Shown here one piece after another: positions 17,881-25,718 of a stretch of 64,000 nucleotides of DNA (positions are counted from its first letter, which is position 1; the number at the start of each line of letters is the position of its first letter). The notes beneath the pieces were generated by a model, which was not told the DNA's origin, did not search any database, and saw nothing but the letters and a program-made list of their open reading frames with translations. The DNA comes from Neobacillus mesonae (GTDB taxonomy: Bacteria; Bacillota; Bacilli; Bacillales; Cytobacillaceae): NCBI RefSeq assembly GCF_001636315.1, contig NZ_KV440949.1, positions 5,412,084-5,476,083 of the forward strand, given 5' to 3'. A program made the translations under genes and the position numbers.

Positions 17881-18350
17881 CTTATCCACACCTTTCTTTA
17901 ATATCAACAACTATTTTATAGGCCAACTTTATAGAATCTATTAAATTATCGTAAAAAGGATATTTGATTGTTGTTAATATTTTGTAAATTCTAATGACTT
18001 ACTAGGCATACATCCAAAACTAATGATTATGGAAAAGAAGGTGTCAAAGGATATCTAGATAACTAAAATGAAAGGAGAAAGTGACCAAAAAAGCGAATCA
18101 AATAATTATAAAGTGTTTTACAAATAAAAAAGTATTTGTGCTTAGACATTTTTTTCAAGTAGGTCTCCTGGTCTAGAAAAAAGTGATTCTATTTTCTCGC
18201 ATCCTCACCTTTTTATCTTTTATAGGAATCAAGTCAACGTCGCTTCTGATACTTTTCTACTTTTTTAAAAGTTTTAGTAGGAATACGCATATAATTGTCG
18301 AAATATTTAATCTTTAACACTATTATTTAAACGAAAGGAGAATTTTTTTA
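17881..18350. other. Divergent promoter region, no gene
   Basis: About 470 bp between the endonuclease gene and the carboxypeptidase gene. It should contain both promoters; TATAAT at about 18290 is a possible -10 for the carboxypeptidase but has only a poor -35. Short ATG-initiated frames are present without convincing ribosome sites. No repeat or RNA structure was recognised. Confidence 0.4.
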
Positions 18351-21185
18351 ATGAATCGATGGAAAGTAAGGAATTGTGCAGTCCTTTTAACTCTCTTGCT
18401 CGTGATTTCCATTGTTATGCCAGTACAAGCAGAGACGACTCAGGAGGAAATACTAAGCCATCTGCTACAGTCGTATGTTCAACCGTTAAGCAGCAACCCC
18501 AATAGTGAAGGAATGTCTGTTGGGTATGAAGTGTATTCGCTTGATGATGACAATACTCTCGCCTCTTACCATGCTGACAAAACATTTGTACCGGCATCAA
18601 TCTTTAAGCTTCTGATCACTGCTGCAGCGGTAACCAAATGGCCTAAAGATATGACCATCCCTACTAAAGTGTTTACTACTGGAAATTTAAGTAATTCCGG
18701 TGTGCTTAACGGGGATGTTATCTTAAAAGGCTACGGCGATCCGACACTAACAATTGAAAAACTAGAAACATTAGCTCATAGCCTGGCTGATCAAAATATA
18801 CATAAGGTGAATGGCAACATCATCGTAGATGAAAGTTATTTTGATGACCAGCGGTTAGGTGAAGAATGGATGTGGGATGATGAGCCTTACAGCTATACTA
18901 CGCAAATGAGCGCCCTATCCGTAAAAGAAAACACTGTGAATGTTAACGTTCGACCGGGCAAACAAATTGGCGATACTCCATCAGTTACCATTGCTCCTGC
19001 ACCTGACTATGTGACCGTTGTTAACAAGGCAAAAACGGTAGATGGAAATAAAGTATCGTTAACCATTGACCGAACCCTTGGAAAAAATGAAATCGCCATC
19101 AGCGGGACAATTGGGAAGGATTATTCAGCAATCGGCTACACCGTTACACGCACCATCCATGACCCGGCACCATTTACAGGCACTGTATTTCGGGATTTAC
19201 TCGTAAAACATGGCATTACTTTTAAAAATAATTCTGCTGTTAAAAAAGGTACAGCGGCTGATAATGCACGTTTAGCTGGATCTGTAGAATCAGCAAAATT
19301 AGATGATATTTTAACCCTGATGGTGAAAGACAGTAATAATTTTTACGCAGAAATGTTCACCAAGCTGCTTGGTGCCAAAGAAGCCGGTACGGGCTCAACA
19401 GCTGCAGGGATCGACGTGATTCATCGTTTCCTAGTAAAGGATTTAGGTCTTGAGGATGATTTTATCCAAAAGGACGGATCTGGTCTGACTCGCATGGATC
19501 ATATCTCCCCTCATGCCTATATTCAATTGCTGAACAGCATGTATAACGGGCCGGAACGAGACCGTTTTATTTCATTTCTGCCGATTGCCGGTAAAGATGG
19601 CACATTGAAAAATCGCATGAAGGGCACCGCTGCAGAAGGAAATGTAAAGGCTAAGACAGGCAGTATGAGCGGAGTCAACTCGCTTGCAGGTTATGTGACG
19701 GCGAAAAACGGAAAAACCTTTGCGTTTTCAATTTTACTCAATGGCATTTATAAAAGTGCTTTCGCAACCACTTTACAAAATCAAATCGCGATTGCATTAG
19801 CACAATATCCGGAGCTGCCAAATCCGCCGGCCAGCAATCCTGATCCGCAAAATTATCCTTTGGCTAAAGAATTTGATCCAATTTTGGATGATCCGGCATT
19901 TAAAGGGATTATCAAAGGTGCCGCGATCTATTCGACGAAGAACAAGGAAGTTCTTTATGCCCGAAATCCGCAATCCCTGCTGACGCCGGGAGCCAGTGTC
20001 AAGTTATTAACATCGGCAAGTGCCTTTGAAAATCTTGGGCAAAACTACCGCTTTAAAACAGAGCTTTATACATCTGGAACTATCACAGATGGAGTATTGA
20101 ACGGGGACATTATTGTCAAAGGATATGGTGACCCAACCATCGCATCTGACAGCAAACGGCAAGATCTAAATGGTCCTACGGTTGAAGGATTCGCAGAAGA
20201 CATAAAGAATGCGGGCATTCATCTTGTGAAAGGAAACATTATGGTCAATCATCAATTTTTCACGGAGGATGTGTATCCAGCGGGATGGACATGGGACTAT
20301 GAAAGTGAACCATTCCAGCCGCAAATTACGGCACTTTCCGTCAATCAGGGCACAGTCAGGCTCCAATACGAACCTGGAAAAATTGGTAAAAACATTTCCA
20401 TAACCGTGGAGCCCAACTTAAAGGAAATCAAAATTGTGAATACAGCCATAACCGGAGGGTCCTCAAGTGAAAATACGCTAGCATTCAAACGAGTGCGCGG
20501 TGAAAACACCATAGAAATTTCGGGAACACTGCCTGCGGGAACTGAAAAAGGCTTTAAAGATGTTTCAATCGATGCTCCTCATCTTTATACAGGTTACGTT
20601 TTAAAAAATAAGTTAAAAGAGACTGGAGTTAACGTCAGCCCTCATAGTCAAGTTGTAAGTGCGGCAATGCCTTCAAATGCCAGCCTTGTAAAAACCTATG
20701 AGTCTCCAACCTTAGCTGAAATCGTCAAGTATATGAATCACCATAATGATAATTTCACCGCAGAAATGATCATTCGAACACTTGGCGGCTTGATCCATGG
20801 TAAAGGAACATTTGATGACGGAATTGATACTGTTCATACGATGATGAACAAAGTCATTTCCACTCCATTTGACATGATGGATGGTTCTGGATGGACTAAA
20901 TATACACAAATATCAGCTGAACAAGTGGCGACTTTATTAGCAGCGCAAACTGGAAAACCAACGTTCCAAGTATTTTATGACTCTCTGAAAAATACACATG
21001 AAGACAACAGATTTATAACCGGAATGATGGAAAACCGCGAAGACATGCCAGGACTTTCAGGATACATCAAAACAAAAGATGGCGACCTGCTAGCCTTCTC
21101 CCTACTACTAAACGGCTACAGCAAAGCGGACAGCAAGCAGCTCATAAATAACTTTGCCAAGAAACTTGTTGATTTAGCTCAATAA
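18351..21185 (+). CDS. Double-domain D-Ala-D-Ala carboxypeptidase (peptidase S13/DacB) with inactive second domain
   Basis: Exported penicillin-binding protein of 944 aa, about twice the usual DacB length, made of two homologous S13 domains. The signal peptide ends near residue 27. Domain 1 (about 35-485) is intact: Ser83-x-x-Lys86 in PASIFK, Ser328-Asn-Asn330 and Lys435-Thr-Gly437. Domain 2 (about 505-944) keeps the fold markers (LNGDIIVKGYGDPT, DGSGWT) but the nucleophile is Ala548 (AxxK), the SxN motif is Asn799-Asp-Asn801 and the KTG segment is missing. Domain 1 should trim peptidoglycan stem peptides or act as an endopeptidase; domain 2 looks like a pseudoenzyme used for binding or scaffolding. 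Ribosome site AAAGGAG. Single gene closed by a strong terminator. Confidence 0.93.
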   Translation: MNRWKVRNCAVLLTLLLVISIVMPVQAETTQEEILSHLLQSYVQPLSSNPNSEGMSVGYEVYSLDDDNTLASYHADKTFVPASIFKLLITAAAVTKWPKDMTIPTKVFTTGNLSNSGVLNGDVILKGYGDPTLTIEKLETLAHSLADQNIHKVNGNIIVDESYFDDQRLGEEWMWDDEPYSYTTQMSALSVKENTVNVNVRPGKQIGDTPSVTIAPAPDYVTVVNKAKTVDGNKVSLTIDRTLGKNEIAISGTIGKDYSAIGYTVTRTIHDPAPFTGTVFRDLLVKHGITFKNNSAVKKGTAADNARLAGSVESAKLDDILTLMVKDSNNFYAEMFTKLLGAKEAGTGSTAAGIDVIHRFLVKDLGLEDDFIQKDGSGLTRMDHISPHAYIQLLNSMYNGPERDRFISFLPIAGKDGTLKNRMKGTAAEGNVKAKTGSMSGVNSLAGYVTAKNGKTFAFSILLNGIYKSAFATTLQNQIAIALAQYPELPNPPASNPDPQNYPLAKEFDPILDDPAFKGIIKGAAIYSTKNKEVLYARNPQSLLTPGASVKLLTSASAFENLGQNYRFKTELYTSGTITDGVLNGDIIVKGYGDPTIASDSKRQDLNGPTVEGFAEDIKNAGIHLVKGNIMVNHQFFTEDVYPAGWTWDYESEPFQPQITALSVNQGTVRLQYEPGKIGKNISITVEPNLKEIKIVNTAITGGSSSENTLAFKRVRGENTIEISGTLPAGTEKGFKDVSIDAPHLYTGYVLKNKLKETGVNVSPHSQVVSAAMPSNASLVKTYESPTLAEIVKYMNHHNDNFTAEMIIRTLGGLIHGKGTFDDGIDTVHTMMNKVISTPFDMMDGSGWTKYTQISAEQVATLLAAQTGKPTFQVFYDSLKNTHEDNRFITGMMENREDMPGLSGYIKTKDGDLLAFSLLLNGYSKADSKQLINNFAKKLVDLAQ

Positions 21186-21194
21186 AACATGTAG

Positions 21195-21238
21195 ACGGTT
21201 CTATTGGTTCATTCCTACTGAAGGAGCAATAGAACCGT
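21195..21238 (+). terminator. Terminator of the carboxypeptidase gene
   Basis: 12-bp stem ACGGTTCTATTG with its exact complement, 20-nt loop, then a T run; 10 bp after the stop codon. Confidence 0.88.
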
Positions 21239-21327
21239 TTTTAATCTAAATAATCTTTTTCAAATTACACAAAATCCATTTAACTTCCTAGTTTGAAATT
21301 CCTTAAAGTATAATTTAGAACCAACTA

Positions 21328-21981
21328 CTATTCCCCATAGCTTTCAATCATGTTCGCAATGTGGGTATATGCCCCACCGGCCAATAATGCAGAAGTAATT
21401 AATATGGCTTCTGATAACTCCTCATGCGTCGCTTCAAGTTTTTGCGCATTTTTCGTATGTACATCAATGCAATAAGGACATTCGGTAGCATGAGCGACTG
21501 CAACAGCGATAATTTCTTTCAATTTGGCACTTAGTTTTCCTGCTTTCATAACAACAGAGCTGAATCCTAAATACCCTTTGAAGCCTTCAGAAGCATATTT
21601 ACTTAAACGTCCTAATTTTTTTAGATTCGATCGTTTATAAAGGGTATCGTCTCCTTCAGCATCCATAGCATTTTGCATGTGTGTGCTATGGGTAACCGCT
21701 CCCCCCGCTTCAACCCCAGCTGTCACAAACGCTGCTTCTACCAATTCCTCAAGTGTAGCACCCTCCGCTTTAGCGCTGCGTGTATGGGAATTAATACAAT
21801 AAGGGCACTCCGTGACGTGCGCAATCGCTACTGCAATGATTTGTTTTTCCTTTTTTGTAAGGGCTCCTTCTTTAAATACGGCTGCGTTAAAGTCAGAGAA
21901 AGCTTGAAACTGTTCGGGAGCATATTGTTTTAACTGATTAAAATAATGGATATTTTCTTTTGGATAAAAACTGTTGTTCAA
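21328..21981 (-). CDS. Tandem AhpD-like (carboxymuconolactone decarboxylase fold) protein
   Basis: Protein of 217 aa made of two CMD/AhpD-like repeats, each with a redox-type motif: ECPYCINSHT in the first half and ECPYCIDVHT in the second (CxxC plus His). Such proteins are usually single-repeat oligomers with peroxidase or thiol-disulfide activity; a fused tandem form is less common. The in-frame ATG at 22002 has no ribosome site, whereas AAAGGAAG lies 7 nt before a TTG at 21981, so that start is chosen. Stands alone. Role in oxidative or electrophile stress is inferred from the fold. Confidence 0.85.
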   Translation of the reverse strand: MNNSFYPKENIHYFNQLKQYAPEQFQAFSDFNAAVFKEGALTKKEKQIIAVAIAHVTECPYCINSHTRSAKAEGATLEELVEAAFVTAGVEAGGAVTHSTHMQNAMDAEGDDTLYKRSNLKKLGRLSKYASEGFKGYLGFSSVVMKAGKLSAKLKEIIAVAVAHATECPYCIDVHTKNAQKLEATHEELSEAILITSALLAGGAYTHIANMIESYGE

Positions 21982-22160
21982 CTTGTAACTTCCTTTCGCC
22001 ATTTCATCATTCTATTAGCATTAATCTTTTAATGTTATTCCCAATAATTTAGTAAAAATTTATGGTCAATTTTCATATTCAAAAATCTTTTAAAAAGCGG
22101 GATCTTTTTACTAGTTCGGGCAAAATATAATAAACTTTTTATCAAAGAGGTGTATACACG

Positions 22161-24476: not shown

Positions 24477-25157
24477 TCATGAAGCGGAAGTCCCATTATA
24501 GCCCCAGTTAATATTTCCTTTCAAAACAGTCTTACCAGACTCTTCCTTATATAACAAATCTGCTTCAATAATATATCTTTTTGGAGCGTTTCCTACGTAA
24601 TTAAAAGGGTAACAAGTTGTTATGGTCAATGTAGGGGCTTCTTTTTCGACAATAACTGTTCGGTCTTGTGGATCCGTAATCCATATTTTTTTGATTTTAT
24701 AGGTGAATAAAGAGCCAGCATATTCAAGCTTTAGGATCTCATTTTCCTTTAACTCATCAAGCCGGTAAAACACGGTATCACGATGACCGCTTAGGACTGT
24801 ATGCCCGCCGCCATTTGGAGTTGTAGTGAATGGACTTATATACATACCGACACCTTTTTTTAAGACCTTTTGATCAGCTCCCCAGTAGACGGAAAACTTT
24901 TGTCCAACGGTTGGAACCACTAACATCGCTACTTTTTCCCCCTGAATATGATGAACCTGCGAGCTCGGCTTTTGCTCTATGATATTGGATTCAGGGAACT
25001 TGGCCTGAACTTGTTCATCTCCTTCTTTATACTGCTTTATCTCGTCTTTTGTCATTTCTTTTGCCGCAGACCGGCCGACCCGCCACTCGAGATAGTTGAA
25101 GCTCCCAATTATAACACCTGCTAATATGAAACAAATCCCAATCCATCGGTTTACCAC
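24477..25157 (-). CDS. Class D-type sortase
   Basis: Membrane-anchored cysteine transpeptidase that attaches surface proteins to the cell wall; 226 aa. One N-terminal transmembrane segment is followed by the sortase barrel with catalytic His in LSGHRD, Cys in TITTCYPF and Arg in APKRYI. The preferred start is a GTG at 25157, 6 nt after GAGGTG; an ATG two codons upstream abuts the ribosome site, and the frame opens at 25175. The likely substrate is encoded divergently at 25308 and ends in MPETA, close to the LPNTA-type signal recognised by class D enzymes. Confidence 0.9.
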   Translation of the reverse strand: MVNRWIGICFILAGVIIGSFNYLEWRVGRSAAKEMTKDEIKQYKEGDEQVQAKFPESNIIEQKPSSQVHHIQGEKVAMLVVPTVGQKFSVYWGADQKVLKKGVGMYISPFTTTPNGGGHTVLSGHRDTVFYRLDELKENEILKLEYAGSLFTYKIKKIWITDPQDRTVIVEKEAPTLTITTCYPFNYVGNAPKRYIIEADLLYKEESGKTVLKGNINWGYNGTSAS

Positions 25158-25307
25158 AAACATCACCTCAAGCATTATACAATCCTATTATCTCATTCCA
25201 ATTTATGAATATTCCCCCTATCAAAACAATTTTTGGAATAAAAATAGAAGAAATGGAGGAAAGTAATCATTGAAGATGGAGTAAGAACTACATAGGAGGA
25301 TAACGAA

Positions 25308-25718
25308 ATGAAAAAAGCGTTACTTTCATTATTAATGACTAGTTTTGTCTTTGTATTTGGATTACAAAATGTAAGTGCCCAAGGTGATAAGAATTGTCCT
25401 GATTTTTCTACATGGAATGAAGCACAGACGTATTTCGAACAAAAAGGTGGAAGTCCAACTAATAATGTAGATGATTTGGATCGGGATGGAGACGGATTAG
25501 CTTGTGAAGATCTAACTGGTGCACCAGATAAAACAACTTGGAATTGGGCCACAGATCGTTTATTACCAGCAACTGATGGAGGAACTGTTGGCGATGGTGA
25601 AAATGCAGGCGGACAAATGCCAGAAACCGCTACCAACAATGTAAATGGCATTATTGCTGGAGTTATGATTATGGCGGCAGGCTTTTTATTCTTTATTCGT
25701 AAAAGGAAAGCGAATTAA
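25308..25718 (+). CDS. Sortase-anchored surface protein with Excalibur calcium-binding domain
   Basis: 136-aa exported protein: signal peptide to about residue 24 (NVSA-QG), then an Excalibur module with DLDRDGDGLACE, the DxDxDGxxCE calcium loop, and a second Cys in KNCPDF that may form a disulfide. The C-terminus is a cell-wall sorting signal: MPETA, a hydrophobic stretch, then RKRKAN. Lies divergently next to the class D sortase, a natural enzyme-substrate pair. Strong AGGAGG ribosome site. Function at the surface is unknown. Confidence 0.88.
   Translation: MKKALLSLLMTSFVFVFGLQNVSAQGDKNCPDFSTWNEAQTYFEQKGGSPTNNVDDLDRDGDGLACEDLTGAPDKTTWNWATDRLLPATDGGTVGDGENAGGQMPETATNNVNGIIAGVMIMAAGFLFFIRKRKAN

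Follow-up and report, generated by a model that had tools for sequence, protein, structure and literature searches.

The window analysed here, a 64,000-nucleotide stretch of the Neobacillus mesonae genome, contains an ATG-initiated open reading frame encoding a secreted protein of 944 aa with two full S13 (PBP4/DacC-type) domains, one after the other, and this locus raises the question whether the second domain, which has no active site left, is maintained and, if so, for what role. PF02113 (Pfam) matched the protein in two stretches (590.5 bits over the whole protein), and its score for TIGR00666 PBP4 (NCBIfam, whole protein) was 487.6 bits, as compared to a cut-off of 107.8; the features of the gene are collected in Table 1. 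Neither a lipobox nor an anchor was seen upon inspection of the protein by eye. The region downstream of the stop codon (21186–21260) was predicted to fold with -23.7 kcal/mol; a terminator scan of positions 17900–21400 listed none, perhaps because of mismatches in the interior of the stem.

Table 1. Features of the tandem S13 gene, with positions in the window.
Feature	Position	Strand	Evidence
Tandem S13 (class C1 PBP-like) protein gene	18351..21185	+	ORF list, two PF02113 matches, TIGR00666
AAAGGAG, likely ribosome binding site 5′ of the ATG	18334..18340	+	Sequence inspection
Sec-type signal peptide (putative), residues 1 to ~28	18351..18434	+	By eye; pLDDT <50 at residues 1–26
Domain 1, residues ~31–489, complete S13 domain	18441..19817	+	PF02113, motifs, model as compared to 1w5d
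Proline-rich interdomain linker, residues ~490–503	19818..19859	+	Translation; mean pLDDT 70 at residues 491–500
Domain 2, residues ~504–944, full S13 fold, catalytically dead	19860..21182	+	Motif alignment, model as compared to 1w5d
Stem-loop followed by T-run, possible intrinsic terminator 3′ of the stop codon	21193..21240	+	RNA fold

The translation gives domain 1 a complete catalytic set (S83/K86, SNN at 328–330, and KTG at 435–437); PF02113 matches its residues 48–485, and its model superposes on B. subtilis PBP4a (1w5d) with Z = 47.1 and an rmsd of 2.0 over 445 aligned positions. Judging from the intact site, domain 1 is probably a working DD-carboxypeptidase/endopeptidase. In domain 2, the position of the SxxK serine is occupied by A548, K551 is kept, NDN (799–801) aligns with SxN such that N799 takes the position of the serine, and TGMMENREDMPGLSGY is found at the expected KTG place, with KTG replaced by a GMMENRED stretch. 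Modelled alone, domain 2 showed a complete predicted fold (pLDDT 93, pTM 0.92) that aligned with 1w5d over 430 positions (Z = 44.0, rmsd 1.7); because it superposes this well, the missing motifs do not reflect misalignment, and modelling shows the predicted fold of the dead half to be intact. Domain 2 is an S13 homologue and not an S13 enzyme. Residue by residue, these results bear out the sequence-only reading of the protein as a tandem fusion whose second domain has lost all three motifs and kept its fold. That reading also described a carboxypeptidase fused to a "copy of itself", which is correct in so far as both halves are S13 domains and loose as to "itself", the halves being ~33% identical to each other and the duplication being old, since each half clusters with its counterpart from other species. 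One role proposed for domain 2, that of a decoy trapping beta-lactams, has next to no probability, with nothing found in its favour: the serine that would be acylated is A548 here, and the resulting SxxK without an acylatable serine excludes a covalent decoy; an S62A variant of E. coli PBP4 likewise lacks Bocillin binding (excerpts of PMC9166362).

Each half resembles B. subtilis PBP4a (DacC), the Actinomadura R39 DD-peptidase, and E. coli PBP4 (DacB) in comprising a whole S13 fold and in having an insert between SxxK and SxN, and domain 1 shares with these S13 / class C1 PBPs the full catalytic set; however, each of the three has a single domain and a single active site, whereas two halves are present here, the second without any of the three motifs. 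A tree of 51 fusions, built by a quick method, placed all first domains in one clade (SH-aLRT 99) and all second domains in another (SH-aLRT 98), both separate from unfused Bacilli S13; the 51 treed fusions go back to one old fusion event. That the protein is an orthologue of unfused DacC/PBP4a is not supported, as its halves lie outside of unfused Bacilli S13 in this tree. Among the genomes searched, the fusion was found in class Bacilli only, and when an intact tandem was used to query a draw from across the phylum, the yield was 1 of 398, namely the window's own genome. One stretch in viral contigs matched a pattern, and none of these contigs encoded a relative; 64 plasmid records matched, all with <60% identity, and the best 20 of the 64 matches were ~1.2–1.7 kb each, the size of unfused S13.

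After removal of near-copies (at least 97%; from 76 to 71), our census comprised 71 distinct fusions, including 37 with both domains intact, 24 with domain 2 lost, 10 with domain 1 lost (two of these differ by one residue only), and none with both lost. A domain was scored as lost upon any change in the Ser or Lys of SxxK, the Ser or Asn of SxN, or the Lys or Gly of KTG; KSG was scored as intact. The census omits L225 (genome G494), in which the two domains are in different frames and the domain 1 site is intact, L238/L239 (G815), which are fragments on two contigs, the first dead and the second intact, and L042–L044, in which both sites are intact by eye; L100 (N. niacini MER531) was scored as having lost domain 2 from A-xx-K, the first motif being the only one readable in the main frame, with the remaining domain 2 in another frame and not joined. 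G033 also carries two fragments of S13, whose open frames are 205 and 156 aa long. All 66 unfused S13 sequences compared were intact, suggesting that loss accompanies fusion; these 66 are open reading frames of at least 300 aa, a sample therefore without broken genes.

Loss was repeated and one-sided. Loss of domain 2 corresponds to ~7 changes on the tree, six of them forced by well-supported branches, and domain 1 losses on that tree number two, one full (8 fusions) and one partial (L175/L177, with the SxN Ser changed to Gly and no other change); the full loss may represent one or two events, as L178 is not firmly placed relative to the other full losses in the domain tree. A dead first half is found in one order and a dead second half in several lineages; the loss of domain 1 instead, in another lineage, was beyond the reach of the sequence-only reading. 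For the absence of double loss, rate-based calculations gave P(0) = 0.007, 0.021, or 0.048, depending on the assumption, and placing the losses at random gave P(0) = 0.45; that the two halves are never both dead is only weakly significant. Of the 36 genomes searched with PF02113, 24 have a fully half-dead fusion, and for 11 of these no S13 match at E 1e-20 was found outside the fusion.

The window protein shares its architecture and fusion origin with tandem S13 fusions in which both halves are intact (many from Brevibacillus, Aneurinibacillus, and Gottfriedia, among them Brevibacillus massiliensis), but, unlike these, belongs to a clade (Neobacillus, Bacillus litorisediminis, Sporolactobacillus, Scopulibacillus daqui, and others) in which domain 2 is dead in all 11 members. 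The second half is likewise dead in some fusions from Brevibacillus (B. laterosporus). The refuting case proposed from the sequence, namely an intact domain 2 in close relatives, was looked for, and intact second domains were found only in other clades. A-xx-K is present in nine members of the clade, while L101 and L221 retain the SxxK Ser and have lost other motifs. Full-length identity within the clade goes down to 48%, and aligned relatives outside the clade are 36–46% identical over the full length. NG86 dN/dS was 0.07–0.14 for domain 2, as compared to 0.10–0.15 for domain 1, showing purifying selection on the dead half. At the former active site, N799 and G891 are found in 8 of 8 dead-clade rows and G547, A548, and S549 in 7 of 8; where KTG stood, 5 of 8 rows of dead clade A1 have an ENRxD stretch and two more have EHRED.

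These data bear on whether domain 2 is merely a relict, decaying and with its deletion still to come, which we consider very unlikely. A split of domain 2 over two frames in one strain, N. niacini MER531, would fit decay, as would the somewhat faster change of dead domains (median D2/D1 distance ratio of 1.27 with domain 2 dead, 1.01 in intact pairs, and 0.74 with domain 1 dead); however, the dead state common to so divergent a clade, a dN/dS of ~0.1 similar to that of domain 1, the new residues fixed at the site, and the intact predicted fold argue against it, and recent decay is disfavoured by the same evidence. Dead halves evolve faster, though not freely. The shared loss, the low dN/dS, and the complete predicted fold support the proposal of a selected pseudoenzyme, that is, a domain that lost its catalytic residues and was kept over lineages. 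Equally improbable is a domain 2 with new or relocated chemistry, for example through Ser549 (PGASVK), one residue past the lost nucleophile; while this Ser is present in 7 of 8 clade rows, with Asn there in 17 active tandems compared, and K551 is retained, the site has also lost the Ser of SxN and the Lys of KTG, and in an ordinary helix the next residue would be expected to point away from the Lys.

We consider it reasonably probable that the protein is a secreted, covalently linked S13 "dimer" with one catalytic half, the other half being kept as a structural or positioning partner. E. coli PBP4 is mainly dimeric in solution, and its Ser62 mutants, which do not bind beta-lactams, still reach midcell, with S62G more diffuse (excerpts of PMC9166362). 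The full-length model (pLDDT 92, pTM 0.90) suggests a defined placement of the halves relative to each other, and the two halves of the window protein may pack in a dimer-like manner, with positioning or binding as the likely job of the dead half. The ancestral fusion would have had both sites active, as about half of present fusions have both; the fusion of two copies would have made the second active site dispensable while the second fold was still needed, and domain 2 would have lost catalysis long ago and been retained as a partner that holds and positions domain 1 and makes contacts with other proteins or the wall. The copy that died could presumably be either one, and both outcomes are found within the family. 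For the family as a whole, we regard as evenly balanced the broader proposition that, after one old fusion, the second site was dispensable and the second fold was not, with either half becoming a pseudoenzyme and never both being seen, in some cases in genomes for which no S13 protein besides the fusion was found.

It appears quite unlikely that domain 2 instead serves as a module for peptidoglycan binding, its dead cleft still capturing stem peptide and thereby delivering domain 1 to the substrate. The fold is kept, DGSG is present in 26 of 31 dead domains (DASG in the other five), and, in E. coli, PBP4 variants without activity still localise and PBP4 sediments together with sacculi (excerpts of PMC9166362), all of which would suit such a module. 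However, of the two E. coli PBP4 residues described there as important for endopeptidase activity and DAP binding, D155 and R361, the D155-equivalent Asp is found in 6 of 31 dead domains as compared to 101 of 108 active ones, which weakens stem-peptide binding as an explanation, and at the R361-equivalent position, 7 of the 10 second domains that could be read in the window's clade have K, T, or G instead. Arg at the latter position is not universal, with His in 62 and Gln in 4 of the unfused Bacilli S13 (n = 66), and its Arg is kept in 23 of 31 dead domains. Among the three roles initially proposed for domain 2, dimer-like scaffolding fits best, a covalent decoy is excluded, and the case for the old pocket binding stem peptide is weakened. 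The earlier interpretation is, overall, partly supported.

The conserved rebuilt site described above, with its recurring residues and its ENRxD or EHRED stretch, could also be read as a control surface through which domain 2 acts as an allosteric activator or inhibitor of domain 1. Precedents include the prozyme of trypanosome AdoMetDC, a dead paralogue (excerpts of PMC5201418), and inactive LytM domains, such as those of DipM and EnvC, by which wall hydrolases are activated (excerpts of PMC10336132); these resemble domain 2 in being dead folds that partner active enzymes; these are, however, separate proteins of other enzyme families, for which regulation was shown experimentally. As other lineages rebuild the dead site quite differently or have a dead domain 1 instead, no control surface is common to the family, and we consider this explanation unlikely. 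A further case of one dead domain in a tandem is metallocarboxypeptidase D, which belongs to a different enzyme family and has three tandem carboxypeptidase domains in one chain, of which the first two alone are predicted to be active and one is dead (excerpts of PMC5683605).

No tandem S13 protein or dead S13 domain was named among the matches listed in searches of the open-access literature, which is weak evidence of absence, and no tandem S13 structure was among the entries in the matches listed, which excludes nothing. To our knowledge, it is not settled which purpose dimerisation serves in E. coli PBP4 and other S13 enzymes. Fusions with both halves live, with a dead first half, and with a dead second half, all from one fusion, represent a natural separation-of-function series, and their comparison offers a direct test of the second subunit's non-catalytic role; if the broader proposition for the family is true, the series lends itself to asking which functions, apart from chemistry, the second subunit has in a dimeric penicillin-binding protein. 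The maintenance of the dead half suggests that it is kept for a structural or guiding job. Caution is also needed in annotation, as these proteins are named carboxypeptidases although half of the chain is often no enzyme; a fluorescent penicillin would be expected to label one site, not two.

The same genome has a separate, unfused S13 gene (C1:316862–318220), and the fusion is present in 5 of 61 Neobacillus genomes; as Neobacillus thus also has a normal single S13, the role of the fusion there is likely accessory. No neighbour gene common to the whole clade was found among the 15 loci compared, so that gene context points to no partner. Shared neighbours were pairwise only: a phosphotransferase-like gene (80%) for the window and N. 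rhizosphaerae, and a 419-aa gene (95%) for B. litorisediminis and G089; other neighbour matches were weak (25–45%) and to common families, and include TRAP transporter genes located close to the fusion both in B. litorisediminis and in the window. With the lysine cluster of PBP4a (excerpts of PMC4604126) as a model, the charge of the domain II/III insert gave no sign of wall or membrane binding, being net -5 in both domains of the window protein. In fusions with domain 1 lost, the dead insert has a mean charge of +2.0, as compared to -4.2 for the live partner.

In the translation of the tandem S13 gene, domain 1 (D1) carries S83/K86, SNN328-330 and KTG435-437, and domain 2 (D2) carries A548/K551 and NDN799-801, with KTG absent; the active-site residues that the sequence-only reading had named for both domains agree exactly with this translation. 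PF02113 (Pfam Peptidase_S13) matched the protein in two separate stretches, and the TIGR00666 (NCBIfam PBP4) score was well over the cut-off. Judging from its motifs, D1 is presumably an active enzyme. Because both flanking genes are on the opposite strand, the fusion gene probably stands alone as a single-gene unit; a terminator scan of the surrounding region listed none, despite a stem-loop and T-run 3′ of the stop codon.

Features of the window around the tandem S13 gene
Feature	Position	Strand	Evidence or remarks
Tandem S13 gene	18351-21185	+	ATG start, 944 aa, AAAGGAG upstream
Protein of 224 aa with a pair of AhpD/CMD-type domains	21328-22002	-	TIGR04169 in two stretches; CMD
Class D sortase (SrtD, LPxTATN-specific)	24477-25175	-	NCBIfam, 210 bits
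Small secreted Excalibur protein, MPETATN end and membrane anchor	25308-25718	+	

The full-length AlphaFold2 model (944 residues), for which 44 fusions were aligned (A2), had a pLDDT of 92 and a pTM of 0.90, with residues 1-26 as the sole segment below a pLDDT of 50; this pTM over two domains implies that the modelled halves are placed relative to each other with confidence. The D1 model matched B. subtilis PBP4a (1w5d) with Z 47.1 and rmsd 2.0 over 445 aligned residues. D2, modelled separately from 31 sequences (pLDDT 93, pTM 0.92), matched 1w5d with Z 44.0 and rmsd 1.7 over 430 residues, and is therefore predicted to be a complete S13 fold whose active site is blank.

Fusions were found in 5 of 61 Neobacillus genomes, including the window's own, and, at the level of the order, in at least 9 of 397 genomes among the matches listed; a named contig scan of the best 80 of 219 relatives gave 79 loci, 18 of them with a fusion. 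D2 reads A-xx-K in Neobacillus, B. litorisediminis, two further relatives and Sporolactobacillus sp. THM7-4, and where these domains are readable both the SxN Ser and the KTG Lys are absent; Scopulibacillus daqui D2 retains SxxK and has lost the SxN Ser and KTG Lys, so that the D2 losses among these relatives look like a graded series. In N. niacini MER531 (L100, also L233), D2 runs across two overlapping frames (open frames of 802 and 219 aa), which represents either a sequencing error or a first sign of decay.

With genomes sampled at one per species, tandem fusions (E 1e-90 or better) were present in 53 of 398 genomes of class Bacilli, 52 as a single open frame and one split. They occurred in 37 of 39 genomes of the order that includes B. 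laterosporus (split copy counted) and in 14 of 42 genomes of another order, where one copy is spread over two contigs; a phylum draw of 398 genomes gave no fusion besides that of the window's own genome. In a domain tree of 51 distinct fusions and 12 unfused S13s (SH-aLRT, quick method), every D1 fell in one clade (99) and every D2 in another (98), which means one origin for these 51 fusions. In a separate tree the fusion of B. litorisediminis, a member of another family, is placed beside that of N. muris within the Neobacillus fusions; this placement, the 5 carriers among 61 Neobacillus genomes and the lack of shared neighbours suggest horizontal transfer of the gene. In the split copy (L225), the reading frame changes where D1 meets D2, with SxxK intact in both, reflecting either a frameshift or a re-split into two genes. 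Unfused S13 genes also adjoin in pairs (L011; N. muris, C44:9989-12904), possibly a present-day picture of the pre-fusion state.

After copies at ≥97% were dropped, 71 of 76 extracted fusions remained, of which 37 had both active sites intact, 24 had lost D2, 10 had lost D1 and none had lost both; the full motif set was present in 66/66 unfused S13s from the same searches and in 7/7 farther ones (KSG in one). On a full-length tree built after masking the motif columns, loss of D2 required 7 changes, 6 of them imposed by well-supported branches, and loss of D1 required 2, one full (8 fusions) and one partial (L175/L177); these numbers depend on trees in which some forks are open and some branches (L207, L223) are long. 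A supported clade of 23 fusions contained 11 with D2 lost, 10 with D1 lost and 2 intact. Rates predicted 3.0-5.0 second losses versus 0 observed (P(0) 0.007-0.048), and random placement of the 7 + 2 losses gave no double loss in 45% of draws; a lack of double loss beyond chance is thus weakly supported. In L175 and L177 (family f76), two of the 10 D1-lost fusions, SxN Ser to Gly is the only change, SxxK and KTG being intact, and the intact sister L179 adjoins them in the tree, an apparent early step of loss.

PF02113 was searched (E 1e-20) in 36 genomes that carry a fusion. In 24 of them the fusion is fully half-dead, and 11 of these had no S13 match outside it at that threshold (nine with D2 dead, two with D1 dead). 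Neobacillus has an extra normal S13 besides the fusion.

According to PMC9166362, in solution E. coli PBP4 occurs chiefly as a dimer; its Ser62 mutants do not bind beta-lactams, and inactive PBP4 still reaches midcell, S62G more diffusely. Fusing two S13 copies would make such a dimer permanent; one active site would then suffice and the second fold would be retained. A permanent dimer would account for a single origin, for recurrent loss of one site only, on either side, and for an intact fold and constraint. Its rivals are allosteric control, wall binding, relocated chemistry, decay and a decoy.

Of 8 pairs from the window's clade, 7 gave usable NG86 values in both halves, with dN/dS of 0.10-0.15 for D1 and 0.07-0.14 for D2; for wider pairs dS is near saturation, and the L100 pair spans part of D2 only. 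The median D2/D1 ratio of Kimura distances was 1.01 with both domains intact (569 pairs), 1.27 with D2 lost (92 pairs), 0.74 with D1 lost (24 pairs) and 1.18 in the window's clade (28 pairs); dead halves change quicker than live halves, yet are far from free of constraint. Certain substitutions in the dead D2 domains of the window's clade have become fixed (N799 and G891 in 8/8 rows; G547, A548 and S549 in 7/8), with an ENRxD stretch at the former KTG place in 5/8 rows of alignment A1 and EHRED in 2.

D155 and R361 of E. coli PBP4 are important for binding the stem peptide (PMC9166362); their equivalents were located via the primers given there and structure alignments. The D155-equivalent is Asp in 101/108 active domains (Asn in 7), 66/66 unfused and 6/31 dead domains; the R361-equivalent is Arg in 108/108 active and 23/31 dead domains, His or Gln in unfused Bacilli S13s, and, in the window's clade, gone from 7 of the 10 D2 domains that could be read. 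The old substrate pocket of dead domains is thus mostly abandoned, an argument for a structural or interaction role rather than plain substrate binding.

The gene next to the fusion (AhpD/CMD-type) is likewise internally duplicated, with CPYC retained in both domains. The SrtD and Excalibur genes are likely a sortase-substrate pair, with Met replacing Leu in the signal.
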